From Xestospongia bergquistia (Eukaryota; Porifera; Demospongiae; Haplosclerida; Petrosiidae), in NCBI GenBank assembly GCA_963965975.1, contig OZ014417.1, positions 3,329,821-3,393,820 on the forward strand: a stretch of DNA of 64,000 bases. Reading direction: 5' to 3'. A program made the position numbers and the translations under genes. The notes under the pieces were generated by a model, which made no database searches, was not told the DNA's origin, and saw only the letters and a list, made by a program, of their open reading frames with translations. Shown in pieces: positions 32,501-35,500 of this stretch. The stretch's first letter is position 1. Every line of letters begins with the position of its first letter.

Positions 32501-35500
32501 AATGAGTATTGTTGATCTTGTAACCTATGTACATATATATTGTAATAACCTGTTTATAGACACAGCGTAAAAGTCACATTTATCAATACTTTTTATTCAT
32601 CTCACCCTCGTAATCTAATATGATGCCTACTATCTCTTTTCTAGGAGAAACAAGTTGAAAGTGAAAGTAGTCGTGTGCTGCTTGAGTTTGCATCATTAGA
32701 GGAGCAACTTAGTGGAGTGGAACGTTATGCCATAAAATTTATTGAGTCAGAAAATGCTGACATAGCAGAACAACAATTGAGACAGGCTGAGGTAAACTAG
32801 ACACTGTATTATGTGTATATGATATGTGTGTTTGTCTTTAATACTGTAAATATTGTTTGATAATATGTATTTGTGAGACACACCTACCATGTACATGTAT
32901 AGTATGGATAATTCATAAATGACATTTTGACTTCAAAATAACAGTTGGTTGGTTAAAATTTAAAAAAAATATGTTGAGTAATTTTTCTGAGTGTGGCATA
33001 GCAAAATTTCAAATTGACATGTTATAAACCTCATCAATTAATTTCTTGCTACCCACAGTATATTTTATAACTTGCTTTTTAATGCCAGTCTTATTTTTTG
33101 TTTTAGGAGAATATTCAACTTGCTAAAAAGGAGTGGGAATTAAGTCACTTACAACAGCTGAGGGAACAAGAAGAGAGAATGGCAAGAGAGGAAGAAGAAG
33201 AGGAAGAGGCCATGAGCCTCACTTATGATAGACCAGAATTGGTCAACAAGGTTGTGTTTAGACGTAGTTTAACTACTGGCAATTGGGAGGTGTGTCCTTG
33301 TGACCAGGCCAGCCAAAACAAGATGACTACAACATCAAATAAAATTCAAAGTAATAGTAAAGTGAAAAACTCTCACAAAAATAAAGTGAGAAAACATAAA
33401 GCATCAGAAGAATTCCCTTTACCACTCACACCTGATTCCACAAATACACTGTCTAGAATAACAAGGTCTGGGTTATCAGGTAAGAGTTTAAATGACCCAG
33501 ATTATACTCCTGAACCTGACGTGACTACAAGAAAGACCCGCTCCAGCCCACGTAACACGAGCATCAGTCCTAACTCTGAATCAATAAAGTCCAAGATCAA
33601 AAACTGCACTCTTCTTACAACTTCTAATTCTGAGAATACTTTAATACATTCTACTAGTACTGAGAGTATCAGTTCTAGAACTCGTCATCGCCAAAGCCAA
33701 TCTAATATTCCAGTTTTAGTGAACCATTCCAATGACAATGACACTACAGCTCGTAGGCAGTCATTGCGTAGGAAACACTAGTTTTAATATGTAATATAAT
33801 TCTATTGTTTTAATTATTATGACACCACATTGAGTCACTTTATTTCTGTATTCTGATACAATTCATTTGGTTCAGGCAGGTGGATCATGTTTTTTGATGT
33901 CTAAATTTCTTCCTTACATTGTCAGCATTTCTTTCTACCTTTTTAAATTGCACCTTCTGATTACTAATTTGTGATTGGTAGTCTCATCCCCAAACCATAC
34001 GCATGGATTTGGGAATGAGACCGAAGACTGTGACAAGTGCTAGTATTGGTGTCAATACACATAGTTTTTTTTATATAGCAACTTGCATGGTGCAGATATA
34101 CAGACCATCAAACCAACACTTACTAATGTATTATATTGTATGTTGAACCTTAAGTACACTACTGTTTGGCACCAATACTAGACTTGTCATATCCTGCACC
34201 ATGCTTGTAGCTATCTTGTTGGCTGGTCTGAATTAGGATACAATACTAGCTCTTGCCACATGCATGTAACTGGTATAGTACATTTATAGTTGATAACTTA
34301 ATATTAAGTTTCTAAATCAACATCTCCTCTAAAAACATTTTTTAAATAATTATTGTTATTGTCTAATATTCTTCAGATTATAATTGATGATGAAACTGGA
34401 GAAGAAATGCCGGTAAGTAAGTGATCATATAACTCCTCGAATCTCTCTTATTTCCTTAGATTTGGTTACCACCCACTCCTCCAAGTGATACTAATCCTGA
34501 TTATTACTTTGATTTTGCATTAGACATGTCATATGATACATCAAATGTCATGACACCTGATGCTCTAGCTGCAGTTTCAGTTTACAGGTATTAAGTAGCA
34601 TAGAATATTTAGTCTGAATAGTCAGACCCTCCCTCTATGACATGTATGCTTTATAATGTGCACAAATTGGAAGAGCGACATGCTCTGTTTGACTAATTTT
34701 ATATAATTGAATTTTTATCTAGTGATGATGATTATGATGTGTTTGGACTTTTCAAGCCTCCCTCTGAACCCAGTAAGTTACAATACATTGAGAAATCTTT
34801 AATGTTTCTTTGCATTAGAACCGACAAAGAAATTATCAAAACCTCCTACAAAATTCAAAAGGTATGCCAACTCTCGAGACATATTATCTAACTAGTTTTT
34901 GTAATTATCTCTAATACCCCTACAATTAATTGTTATATATCTCATTTTGGTTTTGTTCTGCAGAGAACAGATGTCCATTCCTCAGAGTCTATTTTGGCGT
35001 CGCTATACTCCTGACCTTTTAACTACTCGTATTAGGAAACTCTCTCCACAAACCAAAAAGGTGAAGGGCAAAGCTGAACAATTCACTCCACTGCTTGAAG
35101 CTCAGGTGTGCATTCAACTTAAGACAATAGATTACATAATATAAAAGGACTAACATTTTGTCACTAATTGTCTATAATATAAATGCATTATCTTAACAAG
35201 TTATTAAATGTGATAGTACATTTTAAATTATTTAATATTATTTTAATTTTGTAAGTGAATTTGTTGTCTCTCTATAATTGATTTCATTAAGTGTGTACAT
35301 CTCATTTATAGGAGGGTCCAGAATGGTTGTCTTTTGAAGACTGGGTTCTTATTAAGGTAAAATAGTTTCAATAAAATATAATTATTATGTTATTATTTAG
35401 GGACTTACTGCAGCCCTTGAAGTCCCCCTCTCTCTAACAGCTACTGTTCCTGCACAAATGCCTAATTGGACTATTTTAGCTGATCTTGTATCAAGTTTAG

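Follow-up and report, generated by a model that had tools for sequence, protein, structure and literature searches.

Can a single Domino-type gene supply two different proteins by ending its coding sequence in two different ways? The question is raised by a locus of the sponge Xestospongia bergquistia, lying within the 64,000 nucleotides of contig OZ014417.1 (positions 3,329,821 to 3,393,820) that we refer to as the window and whose own numbering is used throughout. The + strand of the window contains a Domino-type gene, modelled as 42 coding exons joined in phase, which, with the ATG at 23600 assumed as its start, encodes 2440 amino acids and closes with a stop whose last base is 38326. After residue 1738 the gene has two possible continuations (Table 1). 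Splicing of 33289 to 34377 would yield a long EP400/DOM-A-like protein with postmotor domain, SANT and Gln-rich parts; if this splice is skipped and the transcript ends within the intron, translation would continue for 163 codons and yield a DOM-B-like protein of 1901 amino acids. An alternative C-terminus that makes a DOM-B-like form is our best reading of the locus, with a probability of about 0.6. The production of a short mRNA, its polyadenylation and translation, and the role of the product are inferences from the DNA sequence.

Identity of the gene and geometry of the fork

The ATPase of the gene is closest to that of human SRCAP (860 bits), followed by yeast SWR1 (687 bits), human EP400 (495 bits) and INO80 (481 bits), which, together with an HSA domain, assigns the gene to the SWR1/SRCAP/EP400 (Domino) group. 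Pfam matches comprise EP400_N (27.5 bits, borderline at a cut-off of 27), HSA (65.5), SNF2 (299.3) and Helicase_C (86.9). The part shared by both continuations consists, in order, of an EP400_N-like stretch, the HSA domain, SNF2 lobe 1, an insertion, the helicase C lobe and an acidic stretch. The insertion amounts to ~237 amino acids between the lobe pieces as cut from the gene model, and SRCAP aligns to the ATPase as two stretches far apart. Past the ATPase, the SRCAP alignment ends 29 residues before the fork. The gene resembles yeast Swr1 (1514 amino acids) in its SWR1-type ATPase, but the post-ATPase alignment stops at Swr1 residue 1491 (residue 116 of 491 in the query), and nothing of Swr1 aligns with the postmotor or SANT region.

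The gene is like human EP400 in its N-terminal stretch, postmotor region and SANT, and the EP400 alignment carries on past the fork and through the SANT domain. In EP400 numbering the fork falls at residues 2236/2237, and an alignment gap lies immediately before it; identity is 7 of 20 aligned residues before the join and 17 of 40 after it, and directly past the join lies the sequence MPxWxPPTPP, common to EP400. Six contact residues named in the sections of PMC11995519 on EP400 were mapped onto the sponge protein, of which D2259, Y2261 and D2406 are identical, while R2413, I2260 and H2397 are replaced by K, Y and Q, respectively. According to the same sections, the motor of EP400 is followed by a postmotor domain, a linker, SANT, a hydrophobic domain and a Gln/Pro-rich domain; the HSA and postmotor domains jointly tether the acetyltransferase module via EPC1, and the SANT and hydrophobic domains tether TRRAP (PMC11995519). 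Together, the EP400 alignment and the mapped contact residues locate the counterparts of EP400's beyond-motor attachment parts, as judged from the postmotor domain and SANT, 3' of the fork. The long form combines a postmotor domain, SANT and a Gln-rich C-terminus in one protein, with no Pfam match for its SANT region. By these comparisons the gene is an SRCAP-like ATPase within an EP400 body, and homology across the join gives good support to the EP400-like long form put forward in the original prediction. In a two-form gene, the attachment parts of the long form would hold the NuA4-type acetyltransferase and TRRAP modules, and the short form, retaining HSA and ATPase without these parts, would build an ARP6-containing, H2A.Z-depositing complex.

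The fork itself lies in an open reading frame of 224 codons (33107..33781). Its donor, GAG/gtgtgt after 33289, and the acceptor ttcttcag/ATT at 34377 are both in phase 0, and the in-phase join proposed earlier is exact in its coordinates. When 33289 is left unspliced, the frame stays open for 163 further codons up to the stop at 33779-33781; that these form a basic tail, as had been claimed, is confirmed by 27 Lys/Arg against 13 Asp/Glu. The predicted frame thereby offers an alternative in-frame C-terminus past the ATPase, without SANT and the Gln-rich part. An arrangement in which one SRCAP-like gene ends at 33781 and a separate, adjacent Eaf1-like gene follows strikes us as extremely unlikely, since the EP400 alignment covers both sides of the join, with the gap just before it, and since the frame 5' of 34377 contains a TAA (34347-34349) with no ATG from there to exon 27.

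Table 1 Features of the Domino-type gene around the fork, in window coordinates.
Feature	Coordinates	Strand	Basis
Shared part, coding exons 1-26 (residues 1-1738; start codon assumed)	23600..33289	+	In-phase gene model, Pfam
Exon 26, fork exon, 3' end GAG/gtgtgt	33107..33289	+	Acceptor rank 1 of 37, donor rank 18 of 37 in the gene
In-frame extension, 163 codons and stop; candidate short-form (DOM-B-like) C-terminus	33290..33781	+	
CAG/GTAAGA donor motif in the tail, intron side, phase 1; possible competitor	33480..33485	+	Score 11.55
Remaining intron, where a short-form 3' end would have to form	33782..34376	+	Hexamer scan, repeat scan
Exon 27, first exon specific to the long form; weak acceptor	34377..34412	+	
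Exon 28, postmotor-domain region (IWLPPTPP...DYY)	34460..34587	+	EP400 alignment; D2259 and Y2261 conserved (residues from the EP400 sections of PMC11995519)
Exons 31-35, containing the stretch that matches EP400 SANT in the alignment	34964..35737	+	Alignment (D2406 identical, R2413 to K, H2397 to Q); no Pfam match
Last long-form exon, Gln-rich, contains stop	37584..38326	+	

Coding character of the frame past the fork

The open frame of the tail is more than chance. Reading through past each of the 37 donors of the gene, the 163 codons at the fork are the longest extension, the next longest being 84. In the other introns, triplets are stops at a frequency of 0.073, which puts the probability of 163 open codons at ~4e-6, or ~2e-4 over 41 introns; none of 20,000 base shuffles of the tail was fully open. 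The GC content of the tail is exon-like and not intron-like (0.388, compared to 0.392 in exons and 0.292 in introns), and its composition is rich in Ser, Thr and Asn (66 of the 163 residues) as well as basic.

To these observations we add a codon score, trained on 24 open reading frames of at least 200 codons drawn from the window and from 20 stretches of the same genome, a set without low-complexity frames and without the Domino gene. The tail scores +0.22 bits per codon, compared to a mean of -0.23 and a maximum of 0.07 for 51 intron frames (introns of at least 120 nt) and -0.10 to -0.23 for the stretch past the tail stop. With base composition equalised, the tail frame is the best of the six frames and exceeds all 5000 shuffles; the stretch past the stop, at -0.12 to 0.03, is then not clearly separated. 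A control sets the limit of this score, as a wrong frame scores as high or higher in two of five real exons, and the open frame itself is stronger evidence than the codon scores.

Points against a second form, and what else the fork might be

Several observations weigh against a two-form gene, and they concern the tail, the splice sites and the expected 3' end in turn. Over codons 1-63 of the tail a rival frame scores 0.18 compared to 0.16 for the tail frame, and GC by codon position is 0.34/0.50/0.33 in the tail versus 0.52/0.38/0.28 in the rest of the gene. Furthermore, searches of PDB sequences, Pfam, the sponge genome, viral contigs and prokaryote genomes brought up no homologue for the tail: the PDB search, at E values up to 10, gave no SRCAP match, Pfam gave no match, and neither the 44 pattern matches in viral contigs nor the 124 in prokaryote genomes included a confirmed one. 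Four PDB matches with E values of at least 0.32, all to one bacterial effector family, were taken as chance, and the one genomic match besides the tail itself (on C2, E 0.27) falls in a frame that looks unrelated. The C-terminus of SRCAP carries an AT-hook tail, and no AT-hook core (RGRP/GRP) is present in the sponge tail. The short form had been called SRCAP-like, a description that holds for the parts lost, SANT and the Gln-rich part, and fails for the tail, in which no similarity to SRCAP was found.

The failure to find relatives of the tail would also be consistent with a gene that makes the long form only, its open frame being left over, not yet decayed, from a former exon or an earlier end of the gene. 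However, without use a frame of 163 codons would be expected to approach the intron stop frequency of 0.073, and the tail contains no stop at all, making a relic, in our estimation, quite unlikely.

Splice sites were scored leave-one-out against the other sites of the gene (37 donors and 37 acceptors). The donor at 33289 is of ordinary strength (score 8.25, rank 18 of 37), contrary to the original prediction of a weak donor, and its gtgtgt recurs after 35737, at exon 35. The weak element is instead the acceptor at 34377 (score 2.99, rank 34 of 37), which closes the longest intron of the gene (1087 nt; the next is 731 nt). Because the donor is ordinary, default splicing at this position is not visibly disfavoured, and the scores suggest that a switch, if it exists, would act through late or weak recognition of the acceptor.

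Turning to the 3' end, the 595 bases before the acceptor (33782-34376) contain no AATAAA or ATTAAA, which is weak evidence because only 0.93 such hexamers are expected there by chance, as estimated from the other introns. Among 12 hexamers scanned over the same bases, AATATA (33793) and AATACA (34054) were the sole matches; the scan does not support a 3' end in the intron, though one may form there. The missing canonical polyadenylation signal, the weak acceptor and the length of the intron would all fit an off-switch, in which the intron is sometimes retained, the transcript continues and the stop at 33779-33781 leads to decay or nuclear retention, with no second protein. We judge this unlikely, as an off-switch needs a single early stop, whereas 163 coding-like, stop-free codons suggest that the protein matters. 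The fork intron also contains nested imperfect inverted repeats at 34029-34260, with arms of 20, 21 and 16 nt; despite these, a genome search that skipped common words found no second copy of the intron.

The best donor motif of the entire gene, CAG/GTAAGA at 33479/33480 (score 11.55), is situated inside the tail and could be the alternative site in actual use. A join from it to 34819 would continue in frame for 631 codons, giving a long form with 63 additional codons and without exons 27-29, and hence without the postmotor region; joins to other acceptors would give a short product with a different end. Yet joins from 33479 to eight known acceptors (34377-35581) meet a stop within 50 codons in seven cases, and those to four candidate acceptors in the intron do so within 31 codons. 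The 99 codons past the site are stop-free (P ~5e-4) and coding-like, as a spliced-out stretch need not be, and a strong donor motif also lies within exon 1 (23807, score 10.12). Use of 33479 as a real donor therefore appears very unlikely to us. U1 binding suppresses early polyadenylation, and the motif could be a decoy, a U1-binding suppressor of this kind or the source of a third outcome.

Further along the gene, an exon-like stretch past exon 36 (36044-36100), with an acceptor that is pyrimidine-rich by eye and with an in-frame stop, represents a second possible early end, located between SANT and the Gln-rich part. At 37187-37223, two gtaagt donors overlap, one following 37217 and the other 37223, and both are in phase with the Gln-rich last exon.

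A probable single gene for two complexes, and its relatives

The gene is the sole SRCAP/EP400/SWR1-type gene found in the 146-Mb genome. Pfam detects two HSA loci, the Domino gene and one on C5, and an ATPase search of the genome returned 24 pieces. Nine other SNF2 loci were examined, two of which were named by PDB search: C5:8690, beside the C5 HSA locus, is BRG1-like, and the C8 pieces are INO80. The remaining seven (C12, C10, two on C14, C3, C6 and C5:8887) we assign by motif only to other SNF2 families, and with these seven of nine excluded on that basis a single gene is left for both roles. The part specific to the long form matches the genome at the Domino locus only.

Genes for ARP6 (57% identity over residues 30-394), ZNHIT1 (in two pieces), one EPL1-domain protein and TRRAP are present in the genome, the last as 11 Tra1_ring pieces at a single place on C9. 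EPL1 domains are found in other proteins too. In the sections of PMC11995519 on the human complexes, ARP6 and ZNHIT1 belong to the SRCAP complex and are absent from the TIP60 complex. With partners of both the SWR1 side (ARP6, ZNHIT1) and the NuA4 side (EPL1 protein, TRRAP) encoded, the single Domino gene should, judging from this inventory, serve both complexes. A two-form gene predicts one gene with partners of both complexes, as found; alternatively, one protein may serve both. The DOM-A/DOM-B-like pair first proposed for this locus is thus favoured by architecture, gene count, partner genes and the coding-like frame, and is weakened by the lack of a canonical polyadenylation signal and by the strong internal donor.

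The claim that Drosophila makes two Domino forms by alternative splicing is borne out by the isoform sections of PMC7239659, which describe 2008 residues in common between them and report at least two forms with different C-termini for bee, wasp, ant, beetle and spider orthologues. The authors propose an arthropod-wide mode, and the digest of the paper refers to convergent evolution. In the fly, DOM-B has ARP6 and PPS as its specific partners, DOM-A has TIP60, ING3, E(Pc) and NIPPED-A, and guide RNAs were directed to exon 14 for DOM-A and to exon 11 for DOM-B (PMC7239659). The excerpts of PMC7142294 and PMC6837581 contain nothing further on the fly exon layout at the DOM-B end, and a search of open-access papers by title and abstract opening found no Domino isoform fork outside arthropods.

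As in Drosophila domino, to the extent that these sections describe it, one gene encodes a common N-terminal part with HSA and ATPase (2008 residues in the fly, 1738 in the sponge), a long form with SANT and a Gln-rich part, and a shorter form with an unrelated C-terminus, the last only predicted in the sponge. Unlike in domino, the sponge tail comprises 163 residues, compared to ~490 in the fly as estimated from a DOM-B antigen reaching residue 2497. Unlike human EP400 and SRCAP, which are two genes, the sponge locus holds both sets of parts in one.

Elsewhere in the window, two open reading frames of 1115 and 173 amino acids (16720-20589, + strand) share a frame and abut across a single TGA (20065-20067), apparently a single large membrane protein broken by this one stop. 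Two related multi-helix frames on the - strand (886-1248 and 8465-8833), with the common sequence LTRNIEVD.LND.KY, presumably resemble the end of GABA-B-type receptors, and a long repetitive stretch (3177-3898) is open in three + frames, with Ile-His-Thr-Tyr repeats, and in one - frame. In the wider genome, a dense run of papain-family (Peptidase_C1) matches at C9:1502757-1523415 is apparently a tandem cathepsin cluster. A silicatein, sought as a marker of the phylum, found no support, since the single copy that was read there has the normal catalytic Cys. Three Wnt loci are present in the genome, and the distribution of Wnt points to an animal.

If a distant animal with a single gene forks it at the same domain boundary, one could ask whether alternative ends preceded gene duplication, a question that concerns the separation of H2A.Z exchange from histone acetylation, and the exact coordinates supplied here allow an RNA test. 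Only tentatively, and as something we consider less probable than its opposite, do we suggest that the forks of the sponge gene and of arthropod DOM-A/DOM-B are homologous, the switch being an ancient one by which the ancestral animal Domino already made both forms through an alternative 3' end. If this were true, arthropods would have kept the ancestral fork, human SRCAP and EP400 would represent a later split of roles into two genes, and the published interpretation, one of convergent solutions, would be overturned.
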